Source of the DNA: Hahella sp. KA22
GTDB taxonomy: Bacteria > Pseudomonadota > Gammaproteobacteria > Pseudomonadales > Oleiphilaceae
NCBI RefSeq assembly: GCF_004135205.1
Contig: NZ_CP035490.1
Coordinates: 6,439,501 to 6,503,500 of the forward strand
DNA: 64,000 nt
Direction of reading: 5' to 3'
How positions within the stretch are numbered: the first letter of the stretch is position 1; every line of letters begins with the position of its first letter. This document shows, one piece after another, positions 28,866 to 57,474 of this stretch. Below the pieces are notes generated by a model that saw only the letters and a program-made list of their open reading frames with translations, did no database searches and had not been told where the DNA came from. Both the position numbers and the translations under genes were made by a program.

Positions 28866-28879
28866 GGAAAGGGAACGAA

Positions 28880-32349: not shown

Positions 32350-32688
32350 ATGCCCAAAGTATCGACGCGCACATACTCCCGCTATAGCCTTGAGGCCATC
32401 ACCCTCCTTAGCAACCTGATCCGTGTGGCGAGAATAGAGCGCAAGATGAGTGCGCAAGAGGTTGCCGATCGTGCTGGAATTTCACGTGGCCTGCTGCAGC
32501 GTATTGAAAAAGGCGACCCCAAGTGCGAGCTGGGTGCGACCTTTGAGGTCGCCACCATCGTTGGCGTTAAACTTTTTGATGCGGAAACGAGCACACTCAC
32601 TAAACATATTCGCCAAACAGAAGACAAACTCGCGCTGCTGCCAAAGTCAGTACGCAAGAAAGTCAAGGTTGCTGATGATGACTTCTAA
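32350..32688 (+). CDS. hipB: HipB-like antitoxin (Xre-family HTH)
   Basis: The 112-residue protein has a helix-turn-helix of Xre/Cro type at about residues 20-75 (IRVARIERKMSAQEVADRAGISRGLLQRIEKGD). A C-terminal tail (EDKLALLPKSVRKKVKVADDDF) is the likely region contacting the toxin. It lies immediately upstream of, and overlaps, a HipA-type kinase gene. The start is only 9 nt beyond the last operator-like repeat, so the transcript may have a very short leader. Autorepression by the HipBA complex is the expected regulation. The base composition is more AT-rich than the prodigiosin operon, suggesting acquisition by transfer. Confidence 0.88.
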   Translation: MPKVSTRTYSRYSLEAITLLSNLIRVARIERKMSAQEVADRAGISRGLLQRIEKGDPKCELGATFEVATIVGVKLFDAETSTLTKHIRQTEDKLALLPKSVRKKVKVADDDF

Positions 32689-40983: not shown

Positions 40984-41493
40984 ATGGAACCCTATCTCGG
41001 ACAGATCAGCATGATGGCTTTTAACTTCCCTCCTAAAGGCTGGGCGATATGTAATGGAGCAATACAAACGATACAACAGAATGCAGCCTTGTATTCTTTA
41101 CTTGGAGTAAAGTTTGGCGGGAATGGAACAACCAATTTCGCATTGCCGGACTTGAGAGGGCGCACGCCTATCAGCTTCGGAAATTACTCTAGCATTTCTT
41201 ATGAAGTGGGGATGTATGGAGGAACTGAACAGGTCACCCTGACCACAGATCAACTCCCAACCCACTCTCATACCGTCTACGCTTCGAGCTTAGACGCGGA
41301 TAAAGGCGGTCCGCGCAATGACCGGGTTTTGGCGAAGACCCCCGATATATACGGCCCCCCCAACAACTTGATAGCAATGTCTCCAGCCGCCATAGGCGCA
41401 ACAGGGTCTAATATGCCGCACAATAATATGCAGCCCTCCCTGGCCATTAATTTCTCTATTGCAGTTACTGGCGCATACCCACAACGCAACTAA
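40984..41493 (+). CDS. Tail-collar-domain protein 1 (type A)
   Basis: The 169-residue protein starts at ATG 40984, with AAGGAG 6-7 nt upstream; the open frame reaches back to 40816 without a site. The phage tail collar (PF07484-like) motif is GQISMMAFNFPPKGWAICNGAIQTIQQNAALYSLLGVKFGGNGTTNFALPDLRGRTPI. The C-terminus is MPHNNMQPSLAINFSIAVTGAYPQRN. This is the first of five paralogues in one run, an arrangement known for 'microcystin-dependent protein' (MdpB) families in bacteria without a phage. No structural phage genes are nearby, so it is not a prophage remnant. The role of these proteins is unknown. Confidence 0.87.
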   Translation: MEPYLGQISMMAFNFPPKGWAICNGAIQTIQQNAALYSLLGVKFGGNGTTNFALPDLRGRTPISFGNYSSISYEVGMYGGTEQVTLTTDQLPTHSHTVYASSLDADKGGPRNDRVLAKTPDIYGPPNNLIAMSPAAIGATGSNMPHNNMQPSLAINFSIAVTGAYPQRN

Positions 41494-41508
41494 CAAGGAA
41501 GTATAATT

Positions 41509-42030
41509 ATGGCGGACTCATACACGGGAGAAATCAGGATCTTCGCCGGTAAATTCGCTCCAGAGAACTGGGCGTATTGCAACGGCCAGATCATAGCAAT
41601 CTCCCAAAATGAAGCGCTGTACAGTCTGACTGGCGTTATTTACGGCGGTAATGGCGTCACAAATTTTGGACTGCCTGACATGCGTGGACGTATACCTATC
41701 AATTTCGGCTCCGCTCCGTGGACAGCAGGATATAACATAGGGGCAACACTAGGAACTGAAGTTGTCACCTTAACCCCAGAAAATATCCCCTCTCATACTC
41801 ACAAACTGATGGCGTCAAATGACGCGATTACGCTCAACATTGATCCTAAGGGACAAGTCACAGGCGTCACAGATATTCCCTTCTACGCCACCTCACCTCA
41901 GACAACTAATCTGGCAGCAGAGGCGATAGGGAATACAGGCGAAAATCAGGCTCACCCAAATATGATGCCCTATTTTGCCCTTAATTTTATTATTTCTCTT
42001 AACGCCACCTACCCGGAAAGAAATCCTTAG
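41509..42030 (+). CDS. Tail-collar-domain protein 2 (type A)
   Basis: The 173-residue protein carries YTGEIRIFAGKFAPENWAYCNGQIIAISQNEALYSLTGVIYGGNGVTNFGLPDMRGRIPI followed by an insertion with ITLNIDPKGQVTGVTDIPFYATS. It is the closest paralogue of protein 4, which has the same insertion. AAGGAAG lies before ATG 41509, 15 nt after the previous stop, so the five genes form one operon. Confidence 0.87.
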   Translation: MADSYTGEIRIFAGKFAPENWAYCNGQIIAISQNEALYSLTGVIYGGNGVTNFGLPDMRGRIPINFGSAPWTAGYNIGATLGTEVVTLTPENIPSHTHKLMASNDAITLNIDPKGQVTGVTDIPFYATSPQTTNLAAEAIGNTGENQAHPNMMPYFALNFIISLNATYPERNP

Positions 42031-42042
42031 GAGGGACTCGTT

Positions 42043-42573
42043 ATGTCAGAGCCATTTATTGGTGAAATCCGCATGTTTCCCTATAGTTTTCCGCCTTATA
42101 GCTGGGCCTATTGCCTCGGTCAAAGACTTGACGTCCGACAATTTCAGGCGCTTTACGCAGTCATAGGCAATAATTTCGGTGGAACGCCAGGGAGTACAAT
42201 GAACACCCCAAACCTAAAGGGCTTGGCGGTCATGCATGCAGGCCAAGGTCCAGGTTTAACCAACCGCCCATTCGCTTACGGAGGCGGTAACGTTACAGAA
42301 ACCATCACCCCCTATCAAATGCCCGCCCATACTCACCAGCTTAATGTTGCATCCGTTGCAGGAACGACCCCTGAACCCGCTAACCAACTGTTCGCCTATC
42401 AGGCTGGAGACCCTCAATCCGACTATAAACAACCTCCATATGGCGACTTGGTGGAGATGTCCCCTAAGATGTTAAGCATGACAGGAGGCAACTACTCCCA
42501 TGAAAACAGGCAACCTTATTTAACTCTGGCTTTTTGTATAGCGCTGGATGGCATTTTCCCAATGAGAAATTAG
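42043..42573 (+). CDS. Tail-collar-domain protein 3 (type B)
   Basis: The protein has 176 residues. The type B N-terminus reads MSEPFIGEIRMFPYSFPPYSWAYCLGQRLDVRQFQALYAVIGNNFGG, and the insertion TPEPANQLFAYQAGDPQSDYKQPPYGDLVEMS distinguishes it from type A. The C-terminus is ENRQPYLTLAFCIALDGIFPMRN. AGGAGGGA precedes ATG 42043. Confidence 0.87.
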   Translation: MSEPFIGEIRMFPYSFPPYSWAYCLGQRLDVRQFQALYAVIGNNFGGTPGSTMNTPNLKGLAVMHAGQGPGLTNRPFAYGGGNVTETITPYQMPAHTHQLNVASVAGTTPEPANQLFAYQAGDPQSDYKQPPYGDLVEMSPKMLSMTGGNYSHENRQPYLTLAFCIALDGIFPMRN

Positions 42574-42634
42574 GAAGCCACGCTATACGGTGCATTTGAC
42601 AGTCTGAGACTTTTCAGCCAAAAGGAGAGCGAAT

Positions 42635-43171
42635 ATGGCCGAATCATTTCTCGGAGAAGTAAGAATTTTCGCAGGCTACTATGTCCCACAGCAGTGGAGT
42701 TTTTGCAACGGACAAATATTAACTATCCAACAAAACACAGCCTTGTTCAGCCTTCTTGGCGCCACCTATGGCGGCGATGCGCGAACAACTTTCGGCTTAC
42801 CGGATATGCGCGGTCGCCTCCCCCTTGGCTCTGGCCAAGGACCAGGGCTAACTGACCGGCCTATAGGCAACCCCACAGGAACCGAAACAGTTATGCTGGA
42901 GCCGAGCAACATTCCCGCCCATATTCATGGTCTCAATGCATCTAACGACGCAATCACTGTGGATGTCGATCCAACTGATCAAGTTACAGGTGTGACGGCG
43001 ATTAGCTTTTACGCCCCCCCAACGCCTGGCGCCATGACATCTTTGGCGCCCGGCTCTATTGGGAATACAGGCGGGTATCAAGGAAATACGCTTCCTCATA
43101 ACAACGTAATGCCCTACTTGGCGCTTAACTTCATCATTTCAATGATGGGGTATTACCCGCCCAAGAATTAA
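42635..43171 (+). CDS. Tail-collar-domain protein 4 (type A)
   Basis: The 178-residue protein is of type A, with FLGEVRIFAGYYVPQQWSFCNGQILTIQQNTALFSLLGATYGGDARTTFGLPDMRGRLPLGSGQGPGL and the VDVDPTDQVTGVTAISFYAPP insertion like protein 2. A 61-nt gap precedes it; AAAGGAGAG is the ribosome-binding site. Confidence 0.87.
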   Translation: MAESFLGEVRIFAGYYVPQQWSFCNGQILTIQQNTALFSLLGATYGGDARTTFGLPDMRGRLPLGSGQGPGLTDRPIGNPTGTETVMLEPSNIPAHIHGLNASNDAITVDVDPTDQVTGVTAISFYAPPTPGAMTSLAPGSIGNTGGYQGNTLPHNNVMPYLALNFIISMMGYYPPKN

Positions 43172-43188
43172 GCTTAGGAGAGGCACAA

Positions 43189-43731
43189 ATGTCCGAGCCA
43201 TTTATTGCTGAAATACGCGTTTTCCCATACTCGTTCACGCCAGCAGGCTGGTCCTCCTGTTTAGGCCAATTAGCGCCGATTCAACAAAACCCTGCTTTGT
43301 ATTCGTTAATTGGCGTCATTTACGGAGGGGATGGTCGTACAACTATGGGTATGCCCAATCTCCAGGGAAGAACTTCTTTGCATTACGGGCAAAGCCAAGC
43401 GCCAGGATTAAGTCCGCACTACCTGGGAGAGAGAGATGGTTATGCTTTTGTTCAAATTTCAGAAGAGCAAATGCCTTCCCACACACATTCTCTCAACGCA
43501 GCCACACTCCCCGGATCAACGCCTGAGCCACAAAATATGCTATTCGCTTACCAACAGGGAGATCTACAACCGGACTATAAACAAAGCCCCGCAGATCCGC
43601 TGGTGGCCATGTCTGAAGATATGATCGCCTACACAGGTCTCAGCGACGGCCATGAAAACAGACAGCCATATCTTGTTCTTAGGTTTTGTATTGCTCTAGA
43701 AGGAATATATCCCCAAAGAAGTCAAACCTAA
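43189..43731 (+). CDS. Tail-collar-domain protein 5 (type B)
   Basis: The 180-residue protein is of type B: MSEPFIAEIRVFPYSFTPAGWSSCLGQLAPIQQNPALYSLIGVIYGGDGRTTMGMPNLQGR, and the insertion TPEPQNMLFAYQQGDLQPDYKQSPADPLVAMSEDM matches protein 3. The order of the run is therefore A-A-B-A-B. TAGGAGAGG precedes ATG 43189, and a hairpin follows the stop. Confidence 0.87.
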   Translation: MSEPFIAEIRVFPYSFTPAGWSSCLGQLAPIQQNPALYSLIGVIYGGDGRTTMGMPNLQGRTSLHYGQSQAPGLSPHYLGERDGYAFVQISEEQMPSHTHSLNAATLPGSTPEPQNMLFAYQQGDLQPDYKQSPADPLVAMSEDMIAYTGLSDGHENRQPYLVLRFCIALEGIYPQRSQT

Positions 43732-43798: not shown

Positions 43799-44101
43799 TC
43801 AACTACCCACTTTGTAACTGAATACTGACTCATACAAATAGCAGTCGTCTTTTTCCGCGACGGGTACGATAAAGATATCATGCGCTCCGCAGTTATCGTT
43901 CTTAACCGCACAGGTTTGCTGCGGCATCAGGCCTTTGTCTTTTCCCGCCTTGAAGATGACCGAGAAGCTTTCAAAACCGCCTCCCAGCTCTTTTTTATCC
44001 GACACTTCCACCAACGTTAACTCTAAAGGCGGTTGGCTAGAGTCATAAGTGGCGTAGAAAGTTTTATCTTGATTGGATTGAAACTGGTCGTGGGTAAACA
44101 T
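43799..44101 (-). CDS. Small protein, DUF6916-like
   Basis: The protein has 100 residues from ATG 44101, chosen over 44107 and the longer frame to 44164 because GGGAG is best spaced for it. The sequence (MFTHDQFQSNQDKTFYATYDSSQPPLELTLVEVSDKKE ... ESFSVIFKAGKD ... IFIVPVAEKDDCYLYESVFSY) fits the beta-rich domain called DUF6916, which is commonly found next to tail-collar-domain genes. It lacks a signal peptide. It is convergent to the tail-collar operon and points away from the RiPP genes. Confidence 0.7.
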   Translation of the reverse strand: MFTHDQFQSNQDKTFYATYDSSQPPLELTLVEVSDKKELGGGFESFSVIFKAGKDKGLMPQQTCAVKNDNCGAHDIFIVPVAEKDDCYLYESVFSYKVGS

Positions 44102-44358
44102 CGGCATCTCCCTGCTGAGTTCTATTGAGGTATAACCAGATTGCAGGCGCAGATTAATGCGCACGCCAAGTAAGTATAGACAAACTAATGAAAGCCGGAC
44201 CGACTCAATACACTCCTCGTTAGAGAAAAAACCGCGCGGATGGACTTAACTTGATAAATCAAAAGGTTCGGGTCTATGCTGAAGAAGCGGCTGTACCTTC
44301 TCCGACCGGCCCACACGCTGTATGTGGACCTCCTACTAACCCAATATGGAGGAAACAG

Positions 44359-44643
44359 ATGGAAGCCATCACAAGGGACGATGTGGTCTTGCAGAGCGAC
44401 AAACAGGTTTCTTGCTCCGTCGATAAAGGCATTGTCGTTATGAACGTCAATGCTGGCGAGTTCTACGATTTGAACCATTCCGCGTCCGATGTCTGGAGGC
44501 TATTGGACACCCCAACAAAAGTATCGACTTTGTGCGAGCGTCTTCGCGAAACATTTAATGTCGACGTGGAGCGCTGTGAAAAAGATGTGCTAAACCTGCT
44601 AAATCGTTTGCAGGAAAAAGGCGTCGTCAAAGCGCTAAAATGA
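44359..44643 (+). CDS. PqqD-like peptide-recognition (RRE) protein
   Basis: The 94-residue protein starts at ATG 44359, with TGGAGG 6 nt upstream; the frame is open back to 44251. It has the PqqD/lasso-B1 fold: CSVDKGIVVMNVNAGEFYDLNHSASDVWRLLDTP (three strands, then the winged-helix start) and VSTLCERLRETFNVDVERCEKDVLNLLNRLQEKGVV. PqqD-type proteins bind the leader of a ribosomally made precursor and present it to the modifying enzyme. A 45-residue precursor starts 75 nt downstream on the same strand, which fits that role well. Confidence 0.87.
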   Translation: MEAITRDDVVLQSDKQVSCSVDKGIVVMNVNAGEFYDLNHSASDVWRLLDTPTKVSTLCERLRETFNVDVERCEKDVLNLLNRLQEKGVVKALK

Positions 44644-44718
44644 AAATCCTAAAAGAACAATCTTCACGCCTCTCCTGCTGTGTGGCCAACTTCAATTTAA
44701 ATAAAGGGTATTTACACT

Positions 44719-44856
44719 ATGGATCAGGAAAACGAAGAAACTAAAGTCACGGAAGAATGGGAAACGCCTGACTTCACCGTCATGGACGCCAATCAGGCCC
44801 AGGGGCTTCCTGGAGATGGCGTGGATGGAGGCGCTGGTGGGGATTCGCGTTCTTAA
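44719..44856 (+). CDS. RiPP precursor peptide (lasso-like), 45 residues
   Basis: The 45-codon frame is too short for usual gene callers, but AAAGGG lies ~10 nt before ATG 44719. The leader is acidic and ends WETPDFTVMDANQAQG, a pattern shared with PqqD-recognised lasso leaders (aromatic-x-x-P-x-hydrophobic ... G). The C-terminal part GLPGDGVDGGAGGDSRS is glycine/aspartate-rich and would allow an 8-residue macrolactam between Gly1 and Asp8. It ends with Ser, the site that HPr-like kinases phosphorylate in paeninodin-type lasso peptides. The usual Thr at position -2 of lasso leaders is Ala or Gln here, depending on where the cut is placed, so the exact cleavage site is uncertain. The context (PqqD, kinase, Asn-synthetase-type cyclase, ABC exporter) strongly supports a precursor role. 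Confidence 0.85.
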   Translation: MDQENEETKVTEEWETPDFTVMDANQAQGLPGDGVDGGAGGDSRS

Positions 44857-44873
44857 CGCCAACAATTTTCATT

Positions 44874-44902
44874 AGAGGCGTCGTTAAGACAATGACGCCT
44901 CT
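44874..44902. terminator. Bidirectional hairpin between precursor and kinase genes
   Basis: AGAGGCGTC pairs perfectly with GACGCCTCT around an 11-nt loop. It lies 17 nt after the precursor stop and overlaps the 3' end of the convergent kinase gene, so it probably terminates both transcripts. Confidence 0.65.
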
Positions 44903-45792
44903 TCCACGCTCTCAATACTCTCTGTAACCAACCTCACTACATTTAACGCCTGTGATAGTTTTTTTGGGCGGCGCAATCTGTAGACAGGCGTCCTCTCTGC
45001 AAGTGCGGCGCACATCGCCAAAGCCTGTTGCTTTTGCTCCAATGTCACAAAAAAAGCCTTCCTGAAACATTGCTGGAACAGTTCAGGCACAGCCGATTTC
45101 TGATCGATTCTAACAATAGATGTTTGCTCTTCCTCTTCTAACAGAAAAATACCCCGCAACAGAGCCGTCTTTGTAGAAAAACCATGTATGGCGGGGTAAG
45201 CGTGCTTGATACGCGTTTTAAAGGGGAGCCGCTGAAAGTCGTCGGGAGACTTCTCCATGGCGAGCAAAACCGACGGATCCAACTTAATTCGTGGGAACCC
45301 CGGAGACAAGTAAACGCCGTCAGAGCAAAGCGCCAAAGGGCAAACATCATCATTGAGCAACGCTCGTCCATAATGGTGGAAGAACCCCGCCATGGTTGAT
45401 TTACCTGCTGTCTTATGCCCGCAGAAAATAATCGCGCCACCGTCGGCCGCCCTGACGGCGGATGCATGAAGCACGAGCTGGTTGCGCCATTGCAATACAG
45501 CCCCCATACATGAACCAAGAATATGAGCGAAAACACTCCAACTATTCAGGTCGCCCCCCGGAGTAACCACAATCACACCCGGGCGCACCCAAAAGCGCCC
45601 ACCGTCGTCATCAAATAGCAGTAACTCGCTTTCGGCAGCCTGAAACCAACGGGTTTCTTTTATCTTCCCATCAATGCCTGCGGGCGTATCGCCAGCCCTC
45701 ACCAACAGGTCAGATCCATCCCCTCCTGGCGTTAGCCATGGCGCTTCAAACTCCATTCGCACTTGAAGTCCATATACCCGGTAGTAGTACAT
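44884..45792 (-). CDS. HPr-kinase-like protein of lasso-type clusters
   Basis: The protein has 302 residues. The P-loop GHKTAGKST (residues 125-133) and preceding HASAV (109-113) are as in HPr kinase/ThcK-type kinases; LLNDDVCPL follows as the Asp-containing metal motif. In paeninodin-type lasso clusters such kinases phosphorylate the C-terminal Ser of the precursor, and the precursor here ends in Ser. The gene is convergent to the precursor gene and divergent from the oxygenase gene at 45972. The HPr-type hexamer region is absent, as is usual for these relatives. Confidence 0.85.
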   Translation of the reverse strand: MYYYRVYGLQVRMEFEAPWLTPGGDGSDLLVRAGDTPAGIDGKIKETRWFQAAESELLLFDDDGGRFWVRPGVIVVTPGGDLNSWSVFAHILGSCMGAVLQWRNQLVLHASAVRAADGGAIIFCGHKTAGKSTMAGFFHHYGRALLNDDVCPLALCSDGVYLSPGFPRIKLDPSVLLAMEKSPDDFQRLPFKTRIKHAYPAIHGFSTKTALLRGIFLLEEEEQTSIVRIDQKSAVPELFQQCFRKAFFVTLEQKQQALAMCAALAERTPVYRLRRPKKLSQALNVVRLVTESIESVEEASLS

Positions 45793-45971
45793 ACGCCCCT
45801 TTCCTTCGTAGCACCGTCACTTTATTCCAACGTATTTTGAGCTAGGCTTATAACTTAAAGCGATGGCGATTGTTGGCGGTAAAGCCATTCATAATAAAAA
45901 CTTATAGCCGCAGATACCTTACATCACAAGTCAGGCGCTAGAGCGGCGTAACCCATGCGGAGGCCACCGCC

Positions 45972-46841
45972 TTGAAAGCGTTGGATTTGATTCAACTCGC
46001 CAGAACGTTTATTGCCTACGACGAATATGAAAAAGCCGAGGCGGTACTTAGACAGCAACTACTGGCGTCCCCTGAAAACGTCTATGCCAGAGAGTTGTTG
46101 ACTTCCATTCTCCCTGAGAAGAAAGGCGAAAATCCACAGGTGGGGAAATACCGCCCTGCAGTCATAGCAGCCCCCAGAATCATCGTTCCTGATTTTCTAC
46201 CCAAGCAGGACATAGATGACCTGCTTGGTTTCGCCAGGGCTAATAAAGAACGATTCGAGGCAGGCAAAGTCTCTGGCCCCGATGAATTGCAGCCTCAAAT
46301 AAGAAACAGCCTGCGCCTGAATCTCCCGGGATTACAGGAAACCATCAGCAATTTGCTCACGCCAAAGATTCTTGCCGAACTGGAACGCTATTCCTCTCTC
46401 TTAAACGTTCCCTTTTTTCAAGTAAACGAGTTGGAGATTAAGTTCTGCTGCTACCCTGACGGCGCTTACTTTCATATTCATCGCGACGATCAGGCGACCT
46501 ACACGGATTCTCTCGGCGAACAGGCGTTATGCGGTCGCCAGATCAGCTTCGCCTATTATTTCCACCAGCTCCCCAAACTGTTTTCCGGCGGCGATTTACG
46601 GCTCTACGCCACAGACAGAAAACACAGCATCTATTCACACAAGCGCTTTGAAACTATCGCGCCGCAACACAACTCCCTGGTGCTTTTCCCCAGCGGCTTC
46701 TTTCATGAGGTACTGAAAACCCATGTGCCTTCAGGCGACATAATGAACAGCCGCTTCGCTATCAACGGACACCTATGCGCCGCGGTCAAGTCGCCCTCTG
46801 TCGAGACTGATTGGGCGACGCTCGGAGGCCATCAGGGATGA
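45972..46841 (+). CDS. 2OG-Fe(II) oxygenase with N-terminal TPR-like segment
   Basis: The protein has 289 residues from TTG 45972, supported by GGAGG 8 nt upstream. An N-terminal TPR-like helix pair (FIAYDEYEKAEAVLRQQLLASPENVYARELL) precedes a prolyl-4-hydroxylase-type double-stranded beta-helix. Its Fe ligands appear as YFHIHRDDQ (H-x-D) and the distal His in GFFHEVLK; the 2OG-binding Arg is in NSRFAING. It probably hydroxylates the precursor or another peptide of the cluster. Its stop overlaps the start of the cyclase gene in ATGA, so the two are co-translated. Confidence 0.85.
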   Translation: MKALDLIQLARTFIAYDEYEKAEAVLRQQLLASPENVYARELLTSILPEKKGENPQVGKYRPAVIAAPRIIVPDFLPKQDIDDLLGFARANKERFEAGKVSGPDELQPQIRNSLRLNLPGLQETISNLLTPKILAELERYSSLLNVPFFQVNELEIKFCCYPDGAYFHIHRDDQATYTDSLGEQALCGRQISFAYYFHQLPKLFSGGDLRLYATDRKHSIYSHKRFETIAPQHNSLVLFPSGFFHEVLKTHVPSGDIMNSRFAINGHLCAAVKSPSVETDWATLGGHQG

Positions 46842-48730
46842 GCGGTATCGCCGGCGTTTACCAATGCAGGCAGCCTGTGTCGGAAACAAGCTTGCGCGCT
46901 ATGGCTGACGCAATGAAGCACAGAGGGCCTGACGGCTCAAACATCTGGCTGGATACGCGTATCGGCTTCTGCCACAACATGCTATACACAACGCCAGAAT
47001 CGCTGTTCGAACAGCTCCCAGCTGTTTCTCATGATAATCAGATCGCCATTACCGCCGACGTCCGCTTGGATAACCGGGAGGAACTGTTCGCCCTACTTCG
47101 CCCAGAGCGCCTGCCGTTGAACAGACTCAGCGACAGCCAGCTCATTCTGATGGCTTATCTACGCTGGGGACAGGAATGCCTGGACAGACTACTGGGCGAA
47201 TACGCGCTCGCCATCTGGGACAAACGTAACGACCACCTGCTTATCGCCGTTGACCCCATGGGAACATGCTCTCTTCACTACGTCCAAACCTCTTCTCTAT
47301 TCGCCTTCGCCACAGATATAAAAGCGCTTCTCGCTGTTCCAGGCGTAGAAAAAAAATTGGACGAGTGGGGATTCGCCCTGCAGGTGTCCGGCCATAAGCG
47401 TGAAGCTCCCGAGCGCACGTGCTTCGCCGGCGTGAAGCGACTGGTGGGCGGCGAACTCATGCTTATTAAGCCTCCCGGTGAAAACAGAGCGGCCTGGAAG
47501 GTAAACAAACAAGCCTATTATGAGTTAAAACCTGCAACACTTGTTTGCAAGAGTCCTGAAGAGACACTGGACGCATTCAGAGAAACCTTTCGCCAAGCTG
47601 TGCGCTGCCGCATGCGCAGCGCCTATCCTGTGGCGACCATGCTAAGCGGAGGATTGGATTCATCTTCCGTCACCTGCGTCGCGGCGGAATATAGTCATAT
47701 CACTTCCAGCCCGCTGTTCAGCGTATCTTCGTGCGTGAGCGACGCCGATCCCGAAGAAGATGAGAAACGTTATATCGATATCGTTGCGCGACACAATAAC
47801 CTCCCTGTTCATTACATCACGCCGTCTTCAGGTCCCGCTTCCTGGCTACACCAGGTCCACGATATGACCGCCACCCCGATCAACTCCAATCCTCACGTTT
47901 ACACAGCGTTATACTCAAAGATACGAGAGGGTGGAGGACGTATTGTTCTGGACGGCGTTGCTGGCGAGTGGGGCCCCAGTTACAACGGCGATGGCTACCT
48001 GTTATGGCTGTTGACGAAAGGTCGCTGGAAAACGCTGTTCAATACGATGAGCGAATTGTCCAGCGTATATTCCATCGCCAGAGGACACTTGCTCCGACGT
48101 GAGATTCTTTCGCCTCTGGAGCCAAGTCTTCTCAGACGCATTAGGCATACATTGCGCGGATATAACCAGCAAGAGCGTCTGCCGCCCTTAAACCCCAGAC
48201 TGCATTACAGGAGTCAAACCAAAGCCGGCGGTCAGGGATTCCTGCACAGCGACATGCGAAGCAACCGTCTCCATACGGTTGCGACCGGACGCACGCCCAA
48301 AGAGTGGTACGCCCCTTATTATCAGGTCCGCAGCAGTTTTCCTTATCTTGATCTGCGCGTACAACGTTTTTGCCTGGGGTTAACTGAAGACTGGTTTATT
48401 AAAGATGGCTGGAAACGCTACTTTATCCGCGCCGCCATGGAGAATATTCTTCCCGCGGAAGTGCAGTGGCGCAAGGATAAAAAGCCCTTCTCTCCCAGCT
48501 ACTATCGCCTCATGCAGATGGATAGCGAGAAATACCAGACATTTCTCCAGAGCATTCAGGGCAATGATCCTGTCAGGGATTATATTGACGTAAACAGGAT
48601 ATCCCGAACGATAAAAACGCTTGACCGTAGAGGGTCATGGCGTCCTTATCAAGGCGTCGATTTCGCGCGCAGAGTCGTTGACTATGGCGTGCAAAGCATC
48701 GCATTCCTGCAGTGGTTTCAGCGCCTGTAG
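46838..48730 (+). CDS. Asparagine-synthetase-type lasso cyclase
   Basis: The protein has 630 residues from ATG 46838, which overlaps the preceding stop and matches the family N-terminus MSGIAGVYQ. The glutaminase-type domain lacks the catalytic Cys2 (Ser instead), so ammonia release is not expected. The C-terminal synthetase domain has the ATP-pyrophosphatase motif MLSGGLDSSSVTCVAAEYS. This is the pattern of lasso-peptide C proteins, which adenylate an Asp/Glu side chain and close it onto the N-terminal amine. The TTG-start oxygenase upstream and the minus-strand ABC exporter downstream complete the locus. Whether it closes a ring or activates a carboxylate for another bond is inference. Confidence 0.9.
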   Translation: MSGIAGVYQCRQPVSETSLRAMADAMKHRGPDGSNIWLDTRIGFCHNMLYTTPESLFEQLPAVSHDNQIAITADVRLDNREELFALLRPERLPLNRLSDSQLILMAYLRWGQECLDRLLGEYALAIWDKRNDHLLIAVDPMGTCSLHYVQTSSLFAFATDIKALLAVPGVEKKLDEWGFALQVSGHKREAPERTCFAGVKRLVGGELMLIKPPGENRAAWKVNKQAYYELKPATLVCKSPEETLDAFRETFRQAVRCRMRSAYPVATMLSGGLDSSSVTCVAAEYSHITSSPLFSVSSCVSDADPEEDEKRYIDIVARHNNLPVHYITPSSGPASWLHQVHDMTATPINSNPHVYTALYSKIREGGGRIVLDGVAGEWGPSYNGDGYLLWLLTKGRWKTLFNTMSELSSVYSIARGHLLRREILSPLEPSLLRRIRHTLRGYNQQERLPPLNPRLHYRSQTKAGGQGFLHSDMRSNRLHTVATGRTPKEWYAPYYQVRSSFPYLDLRVQRFCLGLTEDWFIKDGWKRYFIRAAMENILPAEVQWRKDKKPFSPSYYRLMQMDSEKYQTFLQSIQGNDPVRDYIDVNRISRTIKTLDRRGSWRPYQGVDFARRVVDYGVQSIAFLQWFQRL

Positions 48731-48745
48731 ACACATACGCCCAGG

Positions 48746-50500
48746 TCAGCATATATCGGCGAGCGTCTCGCAACCCGTCGTTTTCGTATAGCTTATTACG
48801 CGTCCATTATGCAGGTGCGCAATATAATCCGCACAGGCGAGCAAGCCACTGCGATGGGTAATCACAAGAACGGTAACCTGGTCTTTAAGCTGAACGATGG
48901 CCTGCGCGACTTGCCGCTCGTTATCGCTGTCCAGAGAACTGGTGATCTCATCCAGAATCAACAATGAAGGTCGCCGCAAAAGCGCTCTCGCTATGGATAT
49001 GCGCTGTCTTTCGCCTCCAGACAGGCGCTCGCCCCTATCCCCCACACAGGTATCCAGCCCAGCCGGCAACACACGGACAAAGCCTTCAGCCGACGCAGCT
49101 TTGAGCGCCGCCAGCAACTCCGTCTCTGTCGCGTCAGGCTTGGCCCAAAGCAGATTGTTGCGAATGCTGTCGTTAAACAAGAACGCCTCCTGCGTTACAT
49201 AGCCCACTGATCGTCGCCAGTTTGACGATCCTGGCGACTCAAGGGGTTCGTCATCAATCAGCAACCTTCCCGCCAAAGGGCTAAGCAAGCCGGAAAACAG
49301 ATCCGCCACGGTAGTCTTCCCGGCGCCGGACGGGCCAATCAATGCGGTCACCGTTCCACACGGCAGCGTCAGGCTAAAGCGATGCAGCACGCTCTCATCA
49401 GGCTGTGAGGGATAGGCGTAATCAACCTCAGTCAAGGAGATAGCGCGTTCAGGGGATGACGCATTATCCTGCGCTGTGTCGACGCCCTCTTCCGCCGCAG
49501 AGTTCAGGCTCACACTGAGGGCTTCCACACAGACATAAGAGGGCAAAAAGTTAAGGATTTGTTGATAGCGTTGGCTCAGATCTTTGATCAACGGGGCCAG
49601 GCGCGCAAAAATCAGCAATAAGACAATGAAACCCATCACCTCCAAACGTAAAAAGTAAACCGCCAAAACAAACAAGGCGATCACACTGAGCGCCGCAGCA
49701 ATCTCATAGTACAGAGCCGCCGCAGCCATTGTCTTCCTGAACCGCACTTGCGCGTCTCCAGCCTCCTTACTCGTTTGCTTTAGCCGGGACTCGTGTAGCG
49801 ATTCAGCGTTATAGCTTTTTATTGTTTTCATACCTCCCAGTAATTCTGACAAGTGATTGAATGCCCGCTCTCTGTGCGTGCGCCCTTCCACTCCACGCTG
49901 ATAGCTCAGACGGTTTAAGCGTCTGATCCCTGCATACATAACAACGCCACAAGTTGCGGCCGCCAGCGTCATCGACCAGGAAACGCCAAAGGCGATTAAG
50001 ATATACACGCCACAAACCACCAGAGAGGAGACGTATTGAGCAATCAAAGTGGCAATCTGCCCAGCTCTTTCCGCCTCCTGCGTATAGACATGGTGAATAT
50101 ACGAAAGCCTCTGCCCAATCAGCGCATCCCACCGAGTCGTCGATATGGCCTGGGATAACTGGTTTCTGAGGCCTAAAGTAAAGCCATGTTGAATTCGCGC
50201 CACCAAAACGTCGCGCTGATATCGCAGCGCGGCATGTGTCGCTATCACCCCAAAAAATAGAGTCATTGCCGTCGTGATGCTCAAGCCGATGTCCAAATCA
50301 ATACCCAGAACCGACAACGAGCCTCGTTCAGCTCCGACATCCAATCCGGCAAGTCCGAGTAATGGAATCAACAGGAGAACGCCAATACCTTGAGTTACCC
50401 CCAATACGATAGTCATTAAGCTCACAGCAACTAACTTACTGCGGCCATTTCTCGCCATTTTTCTGATGATATCAACTAGCACACTGGATGGACTAACCAC
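48746..50500 (-). CDS. ABC exporter (fused TM and ATPase), RiPP-type
   Basis: The protein has about 584 residues if started at GTG 50500, which directly follows the stop of the upstream gene; ATG 50458 and TTG 50551 are alternatives. Six TM helices are followed by an ATPase domain with Walker A GPSGAGKTT, signature LSGGERQRIS, Walker B LLILDEITSSLD and the switch His in VITHRSG. The single-chain half-transporter layout is standard for lasso-peptide D proteins. No C39 peptidase domain is present, so it does not cut the leader. It ends 15 bp after the cyclase gene, in convergent orientation. Confidence 0.9.
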   Translation of the reverse strand: MVSPSSVLVDIIRKMARNGRSKLVAVSLMTIVLGVTQGIGVLLLIPLLGLAGLDVGAERGSLSVLGIDLDIGLSITTAMTLFFGVIATHAALRYQRDVLVARIQHGFTLGLRNQLSQAISTTRWDALIGQRLSYIHHVYTQEAERAGQIATLIAQYVSSLVVCGVYILIAFGVSWSMTLAAATCGVVMYAGIRRLNRLSYQRGVEGRTHRERAFNHLSELLGGMKTIKSYNAESLHESRLKQTSKEAGDAQVRFRKTMAAAALYYEIAAALSVIALFVLAVYFLRLEVMGFIVLLLIFARLAPLIKDLSQRYQQILNFLPSYVCVEALSVSLNSAAEEGVDTAQDNASSPERAISLTEVDYAYPSQPDESVLHRFSLTLPCGTVTALIGPSGAGKTTVADLFSGLLSPLAGRLLIDDEPLESPGSSNWRRSVGYVTQEAFLFNDSIRNNLLWAKPDATETELLAALKAASAEGFVRVLPAGLDTCVGDRGERLSGGERQRISIARALLRRPSLLILDEITSSLDSDNERQVAQAIVQLKDQVTVLVITHRSGLLACADYIAHLHNGRVISYTKTTGCETLADIC

Positions 50501-50501
50501 A

Positions 50502-51698
50502 CTAAATACCGTCAGCCTGGTCAGAAATAAACTGCGCCCGCTTGATGACAAGATATCGCCACACCCAGAAGACTGGCCGCAGAAAAAAGTACAAAGAGAA
50601 TAACGCCCCAGGGAGCGGCAACATCACAACATCATTGGAAGACATACCGATCGTGTGCGTCCAATGATAGTACTGATACTTCCAGTTAAAGGAGAAAACG
50701 CTCAACAATAGATACTTGCGTAAAGGCGAACAAAAACGCCCATTTTTATTGCAGCTTATACAGAATCGGGCTAGACGCGAGGCGACTCGATATCGCCAGG
50801 TCCGACGCAGATCTTTCAATGGATCAGGCGTCTTCAGCAGGGCTCCACTGACAAGAAGCGCAGTTTGAACAAGATGGAGCACGCCCCACTGACCAGCCAG
50901 CTTAACGACTGTGCTCCAGTCAATCCTCCCGCTACGCACATAAGCGTCGATATCCGTCACCCAGGACAAACGCGCCCAACACGAGCGTGTCCCATGCGCA
51001 CTCAAGTATATAAACTCTTCCTCAGCAGAAAGTGTTCTCTCCAAGCCAGCATGTTTCCCTCGCGACATCGCGCTTTTTGCGGATAGCTCAGGCAGCAAAT
51101 GAGGATTGTTATCGAGGCGAAAGTGCAACTCCAAAGTAAGCCGCCTCTCAGGATGATAAAAAACCCAGTCCTTATGCAGTTGCAGGTATACCGTGCTGAC
51201 GCGGTCACTCACCTTCTCACTGGGCGTCTGTCTGACATAGCCCAGACTCTTTAGCAAACGACTGAGCGCCAGCTTGCACTCTGGGTCCGCCAATAGATCC
51301 AGATCTCTGCACTGCCGCTGACTGTGGTCTCCATACAAACGCATCGATAGCGCAGGCCCTTTAATAAACATATGCGGCAGGCGGCGCTCTTGCAAAGCTT
51401 GAGAAAGTCGGCTCATTTCCGCGCTATGTTTGAGGGCGGACATACGACTCTCGCGCGCCATGTCCCGCAATTGGGAGATCACTTGCTCAGGAATAGCGGC
51501 TGACGCGGCTTCCAGACGACTCCACAATAGAGGAGCCACCCTGTGCCAACGCAATAAACTAATAACGTCAGCCCATTCAACCTCTTCACAGGCACTAACG
51601 ACGCCTCCTAAATCTTCGCCCTCGCCTCCCAGGCAAAAACAGATAAATCGATGCGGGGACAGCGCCGCCTGTTCACCAGCGAGTGAGGCGTGACTCAT
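50502..51698 (-). CDS. Uncharacterised nucleotidyltransferase-family protein
   Basis: The 398-residue protein matches the NTP_transf_5 family (PF14907-like): LPHMFIKGPALSMRLYGDHSQRQCRDLDLLADPECKLALSRLLKSLGYVRQ carries the G-S/D-x-D-type metal site in RDLDLL. The remainder is helical with an acidic C-terminus. These proteins are frequent companions of lasso/PqqD clusters, where the reaction is unproven. It overlaps the GNAT gene by 4 nt and precedes the ABC exporter, so the three form one minus-strand operon. Confidence 0.82.
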   Translation of the reverse strand: MSHASLAGEQAALSPHRFICFCLGGEGEDLGGVVSACEEVEWADVISLLRWHRVAPLLWSRLEAASAAIPEQVISQLRDMARESRMSALKHSAEMSRLSQALQERRLPHMFIKGPALSMRLYGDHSQRQCRDLDLLADPECKLALSRLLKSLGYVRQTPSEKVSDRVSTVYLQLHKDWVFYHPERRLTLELHFRLDNNPHLLPELSAKSAMSRGKHAGLERTLSAEEEFIYLSAHGTRSCWARLSWVTDIDAYVRSGRIDWSTVVKLAGQWGVLHLVQTALLVSGALLKTPDPLKDLRRTWRYRVASRLARFCISCNKNGRFCSPLRKYLLLSVFSFNWKYQYYHWTHTIGMSSNDVVMLPLPGALFSLYFFLRPVFWVWRYLVIKRAQFISDQADGI

Positions 51699-52210
51699 AC
51701 CATCACACGCTGAACAACCTCAGGACGCCACATCATGCGTTCATAGGGTGGCGAGATGGATTCTGTGACAAACCCCAGTTTCATATAGAGTTTTTTTGCT
51801 GCGACGTTCTGCATCAGCACGCTGAGCGTCAGCGGTGCGCAGACCTGGGCGGCGGCGGCTTGCAGACTGCGCATGACTTCCTCTCCGAACCCCTTGCCGC
51901 GCGCTTGCGGAATAAAGGCGATATCGATGACATGCACTTCGTTGTGGCCGAAATCGATAGTGACCTTACCAATGCGCTCATGTTGCTTTTCAATGATGAA
52001 ATACATGGCGTTGGGAAATTGCGCGCCATATCCCTGCTGTTGCGCTTTAAACTGCATGTCGATTATGGATTCAACGAAATCTCGCTCGCCGTCTATCAGA
52101 CGCAGGTCTTCTCTTGTACTGTTATGAAGTTGCTCCAGAAACGCTTTATCAGAAGCAGTAGAGGGGCGGACAACCATGCCCTGCCCTAATTTCACATCCT
52201 TCACTTTCAT
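51695..52210 (-). CDS. GNAT-family N-acetyltransferase
   Basis: The protein has 171 residues. The GNAT fold is visible as the strand EVHVIDIAFIPQARGKGFGEEVMRSLQAAAA, with the acetyl-CoA-binding Q/R-x-x-G-x-G/A motif (QARGKGFG), and LTLSVLMQNVAAKKLYMKLGFV. GNATs of this kind often accompany tail-collar protein genes, and this one also heads the operon with the nucleotidyltransferase and the exporter. The acceptor is unknown. Confidence 0.85.
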   Translation of the reverse strand: MKVKDVKLGQGMVVRPSTASDKAFLEQLHNSTREDLRLIDGERDFVESIIDMQFKAQQQGYGAQFPNAMYFIIEKQHERIGKVTIDFGHNEVHVIDIAFIPQARGKGFGEEVMRSLQAAAAQVCAPLTLSVLMQNVAAKKLYMKLGFVTESISPPYERMMWRPEVVQRVMV

Positions 52211-52442: not shown

Positions 52443-53138
52443 ATGCAACAATTGGAACTTGCCTATTGGGTCGCAGAAGAGCACTTAACGTCTTCCCGAG
52501 TTAATGAGTACGCGGATCGCTTCGCCGAAGATGGTCTGGTTTATCTGGATGGCTTCCTGCGGCGGGAAATCGCTGACAAGCTGGCGCACTTTGTCGCCCA
52601 CGAAGCCTCATATTCTCCGGTGTACGGCGCGTATCAAAATGATATAAAAGTGTCCGCGGAAGAATGGGCGGAGCTCGACGATAAGCGACGATTTTTTCAT
52701 ATGTCGCGCTATCAGGGCCCCAAACCGGAGTTCATGATGACGCCCGCCAGTTTGACGTATATGAGATTTCAACAGCGCCCGGTGCAACGTCTGTTCGCCC
52801 GCTACGCCGCCAGTCTGACGCCCAACCCGCCCAGGGAAATGCTTTGCCAGGATATGCTGTTGACCGCGCTGCGGGAGCAACAATACCTACGCCCTCATAC
52901 CGACAAGGGAACGGGAGTCACAAGACATGTGTGTATCGTGTTTTACCTGTCGCCGGACTGGCGGGAGGAGGATGAAGGCGGACTCAGTATTGAAACGCAA
53001 CGAGGGGAAACCTTGACCCTATCCGCCCTATTTAACCGCTGTATCATCTTCAAGCCCACCCTGCTCCACAGTGTTACGCCCTTCGCCAAATCTGCGGCGG
53101 GCAAAGTGCGTTACAGCCAGACTATCTGGTATGCCTAG
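52443..53138 (+). CDS. 2OG-Fe(II) oxygenase (prolyl-hydroxylase type)
   Basis: The protein has 231 residues. Motifs are LYLDGFLRREIADKL-like N-terminal helices, LRPHTDKG (H-x-D iron ligands), LLHSVTPF (distal His) and KVRYSQTIWY (2OG-binding Arg). Upstream the gene has its own promoter in the 52211-52442 gap shared with the GNAT operon. Its 3' end overlaps the convergent sulfotransferase gene by 17 nt. It is a candidate hydroxylase acting on the RiPP or on one of the collar proteins; the substrate is not known. Confidence 0.85.
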   Translation: MQQLELAYWVAEEHLTSSRVNEYADRFAEDGLVYLDGFLRREIADKLAHFVAHEASYSPVYGAYQNDIKVSAEEWAELDDKRRFFHMSRYQGPKPEFMMTPASLTYMRFQQRPVQRLFARYAASLTPNPPREMLCQDMLLTALREQQYLRPHTDKGTGVTRHVCIVFYLSPDWREEDEGGLSIETQRGETLTLSALFNRCIIFKPTLLHSVTPFAKSAAGKVRYSQTIWYA

Positions 53139-54264
53139 CTTGCAGTAAGCGAGAGTAGAGACCGTCCAGTTTTTGGGAAATCATGCTCGTGTCTTGCGCT
53201 GAGAATACCCGGCGCTTGTCCTCGCTGTCTTCCTGAAAAGAGCGGCTGGGGTCTTTCGAATACTGCCCCGCTCTGCTCTTCAGATGCTGCAGGTCATCTG
53301 CAGAAAAAGATACGCCAAAGTGATCTGCGATGCGGTTCTCTACAGCGCCTGGGAGCTCCGTGTAGTCCACAACCAGTACAGAACTATCCAGCGACTGCGC
53401 CATGCTGTTCATAAGCACGCCCAATACCTCTATCTGGTATGACAGCAACACGTCTGCGGCGGCGTCATCCACTTTCGCAACAAGATGAGACAACACAGAC
53501 AAGTCTGTTGTCGCCATGTGCCTTCCGGCAAGCCTTTGATGAGACGCCAGAACCTCTTCTGGCCGCCGGATAATGAACACCGATGGCGTGTCAGGATAGA
53601 GCCGGTGCAGAAGCGGCCAGAAGCAAATATCCCAGGCGTTCCACTTCACAATCAGATCCTGATCGCCGTCTCCCGCTAGCCCCTGGGCCGCCAGCAGAAA
53701 ACGCAGGGCTTCCGCTTTTTGATTCTCCGTCAGATCCTTATCCAGCAATAGCTCCGTTAATACGCCAGATTCTGAGATCACGCAGTGCGCGGAAGAGACG
53801 GCCAACAGGTTTGACGCCAGCGTCGAGCCGCAACGGGACAAATGAAAAATAAAGCCAGCGGGTCGTACTTCGTTGAACAAATGGGAATGCCGAATCAGAT
53901 ACTCGATACGTGTAGCGGGTTTAATGATACTTCCAATAATCGAACGCGCCCTTTGCGTAGCGATGCGCTCATCCCAAAAAGGCGCCCAGTCTCGCGCAGT
54001 TGGCGCCACGCCCCATATCACACGCTTGCGCGCCGCCACGTAGCGCACTGGCGTCCACTGGCGCAACAGCAAAGGCAGTTCAGGCTCGACTTCCTCATTG
54101 TTACAGGCGATAAGCGCCGATAAAGGGTCAGTTTCTCCTTGCTCCCCGGCGCCGGCATAACGCTTTAGTATAGAGAGTAAATCATCGAACTGATGGCAAG
54201 CCATACACTGGGCTAACGTCTCTTCTGACTCAAGCAGCCGCGAATAGACCTCGCGACTATCCAC
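53122..54264 (-). CDS. Sulfotransferase family protein
   Basis: The protein has 380 residues from GTG 54264, which has GGAGG 6 nt upstream; ATG 54282 in the overlap with the methyltransferase gene is an alternative. Residues ~130-350 form a sulfotransferase P-loop domain: GFIFHLSRCGSTLASNLLA is the PAPS 5'-phosphosulfate loop and SVFIIRRPEEVLASHQR the 3'-phosphate region. The N-terminal ~120 residues are helical and specific to this family. It ends a five-gene minus-strand operon. It could sulfate a tyrosine, hydroxyl or sugar; a hydroxyl installed by a neighbouring oxygenase is a plausible acceptor. Confidence 0.85.
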   Translation of the reverse strand: MDSREVYSRLLESEETLAQCMACHQFDDLLSILKRYAGAGEQGETDPLSALIACNNEEVEPELPLLLRQWTPVRYVAARKRVIWGVAPTARDWAPFWDERIATQRARSIIGSIIKPATRIEYLIRHSHLFNEVRPAGFIFHLSRCGSTLASNLLAVSSAHCVISESGVLTELLLDKDLTENQKAEALRFLLAAQGLAGDGDQDLIVKWNAWDICFWPLLHRLYPDTPSVFIIRRPEEVLASHQRLAGRHMATTDLSVLSHLVAKVDDAAADVLLSYQIEVLGVLMNSMAQSLDSSVLVVDYTELPGAVENRIADHFGVSFSADDLQHLKSRAGQYSKDPSRSFQEDSEDKRRVFSAQDTSMISQKLDGLYSRLLQARHTR

Positions 54265-55573
54265 GTAAAGCCTCCAGCTCATCCATTACCCTGGCGTTGA
54301 TGGAGGAAACCCGGTGAGCGCTGATATCGTCCTCTGACGCCTCCTTAAACCACTGCTCGACATCCTGAAAGCGCCGGCTTTGATATATCGTCGCCAGAGC
54401 CTTTTCCATCGGCGCGCCCAGCAGTTTAAACACTAACTGATCCAGCAGCCACTCTCGACTCCGAACCGCTTCATCCAGCTTCCCCGCCTTGGCGTGTGCG
54501 GCTTTCGACCATATCCGTTTTAGGTGATAAACGCCCAATTCCCCCACTTCCGTGCTGTCAGGCAGTGGCAGGTCCGCTACCGCAGGACGGCTGTGATAGG
54601 AGAACTCAAAATCCGGGTAATCATTCAAGTGATAGTGAAAATTCAGCGTACTGCCAGGAACCGGTCGTATATTTTTCTTGTATCTGGGCAAAGTCAGCTG
54701 CGACTGATTCTCCTGCAGACAATGATCGCCATAAATTCGGATAAACGTCGTAACCTTGAGATCCGTCATATCCTCTTCGCATTGAGGGATTAACAGAGAT
54801 CCCGAGAGACAAGAATCATCGCCGGCGTGAAGCGCCGACGCCATTGAGAGATCCAGCGTGAGCAGCTCGCCCAAGTGGATATTCTTGCCGCTTTCGGAAG
54901 AATGCAGCCAGGCATCCAGCTGCACTGACGCTGGTATCAACACACCGCTCGGTTTTAGAAACTGTTGCAAGTGAGAAAAAATCTTCACTTGCGGCTCCTG
55001 TTGCAGCATATGTTTCATCGTCTCCGATAACAGAATGTCATAGGATTCGCCCTTGGGAGGCGTCCAGACCGTGGCGTCTGCGCAGACGAAATGAGCGACT
55101 CGGTCCGAGACCTTCAGCAGAGAGATCACCTTCTGCAGCGCCTCTAGAGAGGCCTCGTGGATATCCAGCAGCGTCACCCTCAGCCTTTTCGCGGAAAACA
55201 ACGGCGCCAGCGGCGCCAATAAAAGTCCGAATGGCCCGGTCCCCGCATACAGCAGCTCCACCTTTTCCTGCCGCTGCAACACGTCCTGTATCGCCTGATA
55301 GACACCCGCCATGAATATTCGCGTGCGTTCAATATCCCAGGCGCATCTGCCTGCCTCCAGCGGCGAAATCGCCTTGCCGAAACCAGTCTGAGTGGCGAGG
55401 TCTTCTTGGTAACAGGAAGGATAGAGATCGATGCCCGTCACCGTGGCGAGCGCACTGACCAAAGCATCCAAATGGTGTCTGGCGTCGCCGGCGGAGGTCG
55501 CTCCCAGCAACTTTTGCGTTGCATCAATAATAACGTCAGCGCTTATGGGATCATGGGTTCCAGCCTCAATCAT
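54257..55573 (-). CDS. SAM methyltransferase with C-terminal shared domain
   Basis: The protein has 438 residues from ATG 55573. Residues ~90-220 form a class I SAM methyltransferase: VELLYAGTGPFGLLLAPLAPLF (SAM motif I), LRVTLLDIHEASLEAL, and LLSETMKHML, a double-E-like loop as in protein-arginine-type enzymes. The C-terminal ~97 residues (from EVGELGVYHLKRIW) form a domain also found at the N-terminus of the next gene upstream. The gene overlaps the sulfotransferase start, so the two are coupled. A methyl transfer to the cluster product is likely, but the acceptor atom is unknown. Confidence 0.83.
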   Translation of the reverse strand: MIEAGTHDPISADVIIDATQKLLGATSAGDARHHLDALVSALATVTGIDLYPSCYQEDLATQTGFGKAISPLEAGRCAWDIERTRIFMAGVYQAIQDVLQRQEKVELLYAGTGPFGLLLAPLAPLFSAKRLRVTLLDIHEASLEALQKVISLLKVSDRVAHFVCADATVWTPPKGESYDILLSETMKHMLQQEPQVKIFSHLQQFLKPSGVLIPASVQLDAWLHSSESGKNIHLGELLTLDLSMASALHAGDDSCLSGSLLIPQCEEDMTDLKVTTFIRIYGDHCLQENQSQLTLPRYKKNIRPVPGSTLNFHYHLNDYPDFEFSYHSRPAVADLPLPDSTEVGELGVYHLKRIWSKAAHAKAGKLDEAVRSREWLLDQLVFKLLGAPMEKALATIYQSRRFQDVEQWFKEASEDDISAHRVSSINARVMDELEALRG

Positions 55574-55607
55574 CAATGCATTCCTTTTTTGTGTTATTTG
55601 TTATGTG

Positions 55608-57333: not shown

Positions 57334-57474
57334 TCCCTGAGGTCCTTTATGATTTGATTATTCGCGCCAATATCCTTTGCCCTGGCGCAAACAATGCGTG
57401 AGCACACAACCGCGTCTCGTTGGAGGCGCAGTTAAATGAAGCCTTGTAGAGACTGTTTAGCAGCCAACGTTAAA

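Follow-up and report, generated by a model that had tools for sequence, protein, structure and literature searches.

Some lasso peptides, a class of ribosomally synthesized and post-translationally modified peptides (RiPPs), are phosphorylated or phosphoglycosylated. According to excerpts of the published accounts, on which all comparisons with described systems in this text draw, the kinase PadeK uses the C-terminal Ser of its precursor (PMC9266682), and PsmN of pseudomycoidin attaches a hexose to the phosphate (PMC9266682, PMC8498205). The precursor BsfA carries the leader motif YxxPxL, and a Gly1-Asp8 ring has been proposed for it (PMC10368454). Here, a 64,000-nucleotide stretch of the chromosome of Hahella sp. 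KA22 (NZ_CP035490.1, positions 6,439,501 to 6,503,500; hereafter the window) was analysed, which contains a 45-residue precursor gene surrounded by a comparable gene set. The host is a marine bacterium not known as a pathogen, and its chromosome comprises 6.96 Mb in one contig. The best explanation of the locus, with a probability of roughly 0.6, is a split lasso-type RiPP pathway, in which the leader protease (B2) is encoded far from the cluster and the core peptide and the enzymes acting on it have been exchanged as a cassette.

A conserved precursor gene in a lasso-type gene set

The precursor gene (A; 44719..44856, + strand; 45 aa), which the first-pass annotation had placed between a PqqD-like and an HPr-kinase-like gene, was found at the same position in three of the six other Hahella genomes (G001, G002, and G005, hereafter the three congeners), with 89-93% identity over all 45 codons. 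A profile search of the genus returned the same three genomes, and the order of neighboring genes around the precursor is identical in each, so that the earlier proposal to look for conserved homologues with the same neighbors left the reading unrefuted. Relative to the congener copies, 15-20 of the 46 codons (stop counted) show synonymous changes and 3-5 show non-synonymous changes, indicating that the precursor is under purifying selection. The 45-codon open reading frame (ORF) is a genuine protein-coding gene. The window contains 466 ORFs of 30-75 aa, of which 11 have [YWF]xxPx[LIVMF] with at least 15 residues downstream, and three of these also terminate in Ser; a leader motif combined with a C-terminal Ser is therefore weak proof by itself, and it is the conservation that provides the proof. 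None of the four precursors matched an NCBIfam model, even at an E value of 10 (search filters discard most matches above 0.1). In 390 genomes of the order, the precursor profile recovered its own genome (E 1e-32) and otherwise eight weak matches (E 0.026-0.094), while a scan of genome contigs returned a single locus, in Hahella sp. HN01, which corresponds to the G005 contig. A plasmid search matched 357 records, all below 60% identity, with a maximum of 30.6% among the 20 listed.

The gene preceding the precursor (B1; 44359..44643, ATG at 44359, + strand) encodes a 94-aa PqqD-type stand-alone RiPP recognition element (PF05402, 69.6 bits; cut-off, 23.4), the best PDB match of which is a lasso PqqD chaperone (9x90_B). 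It is 86-88% identical at the amino acid level in the three congeners, and a search with B1 revealed no further PqqD in the Hahella genome at E 0.001. The asparagine-synthetase homologue (C; 46838..48730, + strand; 630 aa, with ATG 46838 as the likely start judged from the sequence) has the lasso cyclase family NF033535 as its best NCBIfam match (436.9 bits, E 1.4e-130) and reaches 200.4 bits with the asparagine synthase model TIGR01536 (cut-off, 267.1). The Cys following the initiator Met is the defining residue of glutamine-dependent asparagine synthetase; in all four species this glutaminase Cys is replaced by Ser2, and the motif SGGLDSS is invariant in all four. In 398 genomes of the phylum, six of the listed matches pass the lasso cut-off, and the window cyclase heads the listed ones that fall short of it. 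Relatives with 58-59% identity are present in the three congeners (E 1e-60; 4 of 146 genomes, including its own), and none was found at this threshold in the other three genus members. At E 1e-80, a cyclase profile run over the class (369 genomes) recovered its own genome and one other, G539, where a 14.9-kb stretch showed by eye no PqqD- or HPr-kinase-like neighbor among ORFs of at least 100 aa, although a shorter PqqD could be missed at this size.

The kinase gene (K; 44884..45792, - strand, divergent from the precursor) has no Pfam match. Its AlphaFold model (predicted local distance difference test, 88.6) retrieved phosphoenolpyruvate carboxykinase (PEPCK) first in a Foldseek search against the PDB (E 8.4e-10) and HprK/P from rank 39 (E 3.3e-6); the PEPCK and HPr kinase folds are related. 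The protein retains LHAS, GHKTAGKS (P-loop), and NDD, which correspond to the His, P-loop Gly-Lys-Ser, and Asp-Asp residues listed for HPr-type lasso kinases (PMC10368454). These proteins might alternatively represent an HPr-rel-A type PqqD/kinase pair beside an ordinary glutamine-dependent asparagine synthetase, with no RiPP involved, as weak matches to TIGR04352 and TIGR04353 could suggest. This is very improbable, as the matches lie far under the curated cut-offs (24.6 of 200 bits for the kinase with TIGR04352, HprK_rel_A; 17.7 of 35 bits for PqqD_rel_X), the glutaminase Cys is absent, and a conserved precursor-like gene is present. Both assignments were dropped.

Between kinase and cyclase lies a gene for a protein with a tetratricopeptide repeat (TPR)-like part and a 2-oxoglutarate (2OG)-Fe(II) oxygenase domain (45972..46841, + strand; PF13640, 49.5 bits; cut-off, 27), a possible peptide hydroxylase. 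Its TPR models score under cut-off, and H170, D172, H245, and R261 are invariant in 6/6 sequences. Beyond the cyclase follow an ATP-binding cassette (ABC) exporter (D; 48746..50551, - strand; PF00664 and PF00005), with no peptidase domain among the Pfam matches listed, and an NTP_transf_5 protein (N; 50502..51698, - strand; PF14907, 166 bits; cut-off, 31.2), a candidate phosphoglycosylation enzyme of the PsmN kind. The gene order is PqqD-precursor-kinase-TPR/2OG oxygenase-cyclase-exporter-NTP_transf_5, followed by a GNAT acetyltransferase and a second 2OG oxygenase. The first-pass annotation correctly recognized the nearby asparagine-synthetase-type and exporter genes, but its extent of 44359-48730 was too short, since the exporter and NTP_transf_5 genes lie just beyond it and the cluster reaches 51698. 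It also regarded the neighbors as unfamiliar, which does not hold, because the gene set resembles those of phosphorylated and phosphoglycosylated lasso peptides. The kinase, the invariant C-terminal Ser of the precursor, and the NTP_transf_5 gene together predict a C-terminally phosphorylated, perhaps phosphoglycosylated, lasso-type peptide, with the kinase predicted to act on the C-terminal Ser. The locus is thus probably a lasso-type RiPP locus of this kind.

The predicted core and the distant B2 protease

The precursor can be divided into a leader of about residues 1-28, which contains WxxPxF instead of the canonical YxxPxL, and a core of about residues 29-45, predicted as GLPGDGVDGGAGGDSRS (44803..44856 with stop, + strand). 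Ser45 is terminal in all four precursors, the tail GGDSRS is invariant, and the core serines shared by all four are Ser43 and Ser45. Asp36, at position 8 of the predicted core, is likewise invariant in 4/4; of the lasso pattern of an N-terminal core residue paired with Asp or Glu at position 7-9, the N-terminal residue varies between species. Two other arrangements were dropped: Gly32 as core residue 1, which leaves no Asp or Glu at positions 7-9, and ring closure on Asp42, which would leave a tail of three residues only. Over its 17 residues, the core differs from the window version at two (G001), five (G002), and three (G005) positions, despite near-saturated synonymous sites. Segments of 17 codons from the five genes between the precursor and the GNAT gene are as conserved as the core or more so in 19/2091, 423/2090, and 79/2099 cases (G001, G002, and G005, respectively), so that the core ranks in the top 1-4% for conservation in two comparisons and in the top 20% in the remaining one.

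Several observations weigh against a lasso-type pathway. B1 scores under the cut-offs of the lasso-specific models (NF033536 lasso_PqqD, 58.9 of 80 bits; another model, 46.2 of 70), the cyclase stays under the curated NF033535 cut-off of 525, a second, weaker cyclase-family match occurs in the Hahella genome (209.9 bits, C1:2978265), and no B2 is encoded in the cluster, none of the ten proteins scanned matching PF13471. Residue 29 is Gly in the window and G001 and Asn in the other two species (G002 and G005). With this residue as the start of the core, position -2 is occupied by Ala27 in 4/4 in place of the lasso-typical Thr, which is not strictly required in lasso precursors (PMC10368454), and WxxPxF spans -15 to -10, compared with -17 to -12 for YxxPxL of BsfA-like precursors (PMC10368454). 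The tail GGAGGDSRS contains no bulky plug residue except Arg, making a threaded knot doubtful. The earlier claim of a lasso-like RiPP therefore stands as regards the precursor, the PqqD-type recognition element, the lasso-family cyclase, the kinase, and the exporter, and is weakened by the missing cluster B2, which it had overlooked, and by the cyclase and PqqD scores; of the Gly1-Asp8 ring that it proposed, Asp8 is invariant and Gly1 is not conserved.

These core features also bear on the nature of the product. The same enzymes may yield an unthreaded branched-cyclic or a linear phosphopeptide, the core of which, GDGxDGGxGGDSRS, may be metal-binding or serve in signalling. Such a product would account for a core free of bulky plug residues in the window and G001, for Asn at residue 29 in two species, and for a core protein that is fairly conserved while synonymous sites are near saturation (proportions of non-synonymous and synonymous differences, 0.11-0.23 vs 0.81-0.95). 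It nevertheless appears unlikely, given that Asp36 is invariant at core position 8 and that the cyclase is closest to lasso cyclases; moreover, a phosphoglycosylated C-terminal Ser could itself serve as a plug.

For removal of the leader, the lasso-type pathway would depend on the single PF13471 protein found in the whole genome, which is encoded outside the window, ~301 kb from the precursor (L009, 9017-9535), matches the curated lasso B2 model NF033537 with 89.3 bits (cut-off, 33), and conserves the Cys and His. Orthologues with 86-92% identity occur in the three congeners, each adjoining a sulfotransferase-like gene, so that B2 and the precursor share an identical set of four genomes. No PF13471 match was found in G004 and G006, and G003 harbors a B2 homologue with 49% identity within a different lasso-type cluster, plus a second weak PF13471 match. 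The co-occurrence of precursor and B2 is weak evidence of linkage and may reflect a single event, because the four genomes appear to form one tight group (pirin identity 95-97% among them, 67% in G003). The sulfotransferase-like neighbor suggests that this B2 could act on another substrate. Thus, B2 may belong to another pathway, with the precursor cut by a different protease or its leader retained, as its distance, its neighbor, the single close group of genomes, and the second cyclase-family match could all indicate. We consider this unlikely, since this is the sole PF13471 protein found in the genome, a search at E 0.001 gave no second PqqD, the 19.9-kb stretch round the second cyclase-family match contains an ABC match without a PqqD, kinase, or B2 match, and the exporter offers no listed peptidase domain. 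Separation of B2 from its cluster also has parallels: of 13 comparison loci with a PqqD and a cyclase match, 11 contain B2, whereas in two (L081 in G015 and L075 in G932) the nearest PF13471 protein is ~0.66 and 1.3 Mb distant, so that a split B2 is uncommon in this sample and not unique. The 13 loci are a non-random subset of 19 scanned, chosen from high-scoring cyclase matches and G015 PqqD matches, with six lacking a PqqD match left out, and were queried by tblastn with window and G003 proteins, from which divergent versions could escape. The distant B2 presumably serves this precursor.

In the lasso-type cluster of G003 (L027, on C148), a pair of PqqD genes accompanies genes for an HPr-type kinase, a sulfotransferase, a cyclase-like protein of very high divergence, B2, and an ABC protein; the 54-aa candidate precursor (6309-6473) has WxxPxL, ends in Ser, and may carry Thr at -2. 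In G015 (L079, L080, L081, and L088), PqqD and cyclase genes occur together at three loci, one of which also has TPR/2OG oxygenases resembling that of the window. Sulfotransferase or sulfotransferase-like genes lie beside kinase-type lasso loci in L027 and L079 (Pfam) and in L081 (by eye), and the one beside the distant B2 (L009) scores under the Pfam cut-off; a putative sulfotransferase is mentioned in such lasso clusters (PMC8498205).

A divergent block beginning near the predicted leader/core seam

Compared with the congeners, the window contains a sharply bounded 6.9-kb divergent block, extending from close to the predicted leader/core seam of the precursor gene to the junction of the NTP_transf_5 and GNAT genes. 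The PqqD, precursor, GNAT, and DUF6916 proteins are 86-100% identical to their congener counterparts, whereas the kinase, oxygenase, cyclase, exporter, and NTP_transf_5 proteins are 39-60% identical. The GNAT gene (51695..52210, - strand; PF00583, 44.8 bits; 93-96% identity) is the first gene to the right of the block. At the left edge (44799-44800), the differences rise from 52-62 in 526-530 sites to 225-229 in 498-505 sites, and change-point analysis gives support intervals within 44795-44805 in all three window comparisons (likelihood ratio [LR] 151-172). With the first base of codon 28 at 44800 and that of the predicted core at 44803, the block begins within ~8 bases of the predicted leader/core seam. 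The right edge is located at 51695, where the NTP_transf_5 start overlaps the GNAT stop, and the differences fall from 343-360 in 669 sites to 46-64 in 614-616 sites (interval 51693-51698 in the three window comparisons, LR 266-326). All of these comparisons share the window sequence.

In PqqD, the leader, and GNAT, synonymous divergence amounts to 0.22-0.37, 0.35-0.49, and 0.27-0.43, respectively, compared with 0.81-0.95 in the core and 0.75-0.82 in the block genes; for the distant B2, 12/76, 16/81, and 15/71 fourfold sites differ in the three comparisons. Judged by these levels, the core appears to have a common history with the enzymes, and the leader with PqqD. A further point on the opposing side is that the leader and core differ less firmly in synonymous counts (Fisher p 0.06, 0.03, and 0.02); as these counts are small, the exact placement of the seam depends on the full set of nucleotide differences.

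This sequence pattern is apparently explained most simply if a cassette was exchanged by recombination and its left breakpoint fell within the precursor gene. Alternatively, no exchange occurred and the block is simply fast-evolving under diversifying selection. Such a process would be consistent with the congeners themselves, among which the block also exceeds its flanks in divergence and weaker edges lie nearby in most pairs, as expected for a hypervariable locus: G001 shows an edge at the same left place against G002 and G005 (LR 23.9 and 28.4, the two pairs sharing G001), the left edge is absent there between G002 and G005 (LR 7.0 at 45106), and the right edges of the three pairs are weak (51694, 51678, and 51754; LR 15.4, 26.7, and 28.3). 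Diversifying selection is nonetheless quite unlikely as the full explanation, since synonymous sites in the window comparisons rise abruptly to near saturation at both edges, which protein selection alone would not cause. A broader claim of modular RiPP evolution, in which the leader, B1, and the unlinked B2 stay constant while the core is swapped, perhaps repeatedly, at the leader/core boundary together with the kinase, oxygenase, cyclase, exporter, and NTP transferase, is about evenly balanced.

The gene content, its conservation, the distant B2, and the sharp block edges are computational observations, onto which a pathway can be projected whose chemical steps, cleavage site, ring, and threading are each predicted. 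In the proposed two-piece lasso-type pathway, B1 would bind the WxxPxF leader of the precursor, the HPr-type kinase would phosphorylate Ser45, the NTP_transf_5 protein may add a sugar to the Ser45 phosphate, and one of the core residues may be hydroxylated by the 2OG oxygenase. B2, encoded ~301 kb away, would cleave near residue 28/29, after which the cyclase would adenylate Asp36 and couple it to the freed N-terminus. The product, a ring of eight residues followed by a tail of nine, would be exported by the ABC protein. The leader-acting parts (leader, B1, and B2) would remain constant between species, whereas the core and the core-acting enzymes would move together. If true, this would represent a natural division of labor, in which the leader readers are fixed and perhaps unlinked and the core readers travel with the core, and a natural precedent for RiPP engineering in which a core and its enzymes are swapped behind one leader. 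Furthermore, cluster-based mining may misjudge lasso-type systems with B2 elsewhere, an arrangement also seen in the two split comparison loci.

Surroundings and comparison with known systems

To the left of the locus, five tail-collar paralogues (40990-43731, + strand), which we take to be MdpB-like, adjoin a DUF6916 gene (43799-44164, - strand). DUF6916 is 98-100% identical in the congeners, whereas the tail-collar proteins are 54-67% identical to their best congener matches, a divergence taken from the best match of each, in pairs that are not one-to-one; the first paralogue alone was run against Pfam. The tail-collar genes constitute a second hypervariable module on the opposite side of the conserved DUF6916-PqqD-leader stretch. 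A search of eight genomes found DUF6916 in the four that carry the lasso locus, but no link of DUF6916 or the tail-collar genes to the locus is claimed, because these genomes appear to form one tight group; the literature searched yielded nothing relevant on DUF6916, tail-collar, or MdpB together with lasso peptides. To the right, 52443-58104 encodes a 2OG oxygenase, a weak sulfotransferase-like protein, a methyltransferase, a PhyH oxygenase, and two Asp/Asn beta-hydroxylase-like proteins (one under cut-off), the middle four genes being 85-95% identical in the congeners and the last not. The first of them, the second 2OG-Fe(II) oxygenase (52443..53138, + strand; PF13640, 49.6 bits), lies outside the exchanged block, and its link to the cluster is uncertain. 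It has a two-piece match in G001 (L006, 4439-5130) and a match to residues 78-231 only in G002 (L007, 14796-15257), suggesting that it may be dispensable and making its pairwise divergence unreliable. Farther upstream (26001-30005, by eye), the gene of a ketosynthase-rich protein precedes a phosphopantetheinyl-transferase-like ORF, which suggests a polyketide or fatty-acid-type locus, and a HipA-like ORF was recognized by eye from its translation at 32450-33958.

No paper describing this locus was found in the literature searched, which was limited to one collection. What appears new is the unlinked B2, the Gly/Asp-rich core without a conserved Gly1, and the architecture of constant leader and swapped core. 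With the paeninodin type (PadeA/PadeK, and also ThcoK and SyanK), the Hahella locus shares a PqqD-type B1, a cyclase of lasso-like type, an HPr-type kinase, an ABC exporter, and a C-terminal Ser (PMC9266682, PMC8498205), but it differs in lacking a cluster B2, in the Ala at -2, the Gly/Asp-rich core, and the extra TPR/2OG oxygenase, and in the apparent exchange edge within the precursor gene. Like pseudomycoidin, with its PsmK and the nucleotidyltransferase-like PsmN (PMC9266682, PMC8498205), it combines a kinase with a nucleotidyltransferase-type gene (PF14907), whereas its B2 is unlinked and its PF14907 protein is a putative counterpart of PsmN. BsfA of Bradymonas sediminis has in common an HPr-type kinase (BsfK), a B1, and an unusual residue at -2, in that case Ile (PMC10368454); however, BsfK phosphorylates core Ser3 (PMC10368454), whereas the invariant core serines of Hahella are Ser43 and Ser45 and its B2 is unclustered. 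The Fe/2OG hydroxylase CanE of canucin acts on the linear precursor, aided by B1 (PMC9266682), and Hahella likewise has a 2OG oxygenase in its cluster, although this one bears a TPR-like part. In citrulassin, the distant pad maturation gene encodes a tailoring deiminase (PMC9266682), whereas in Hahella the distant gene is that of the leader protease B2. A parallel for such a separation within the same family is G015, where a locus with PqqD, candidate precursor, kinase, and cyclase (L081) is also split from its nearest B2, ~664 kb off in L088; this genome differs, however, in its precursor, in a B2 that adjoins an ABC exporter, and in having two further loci with B2 in cis.

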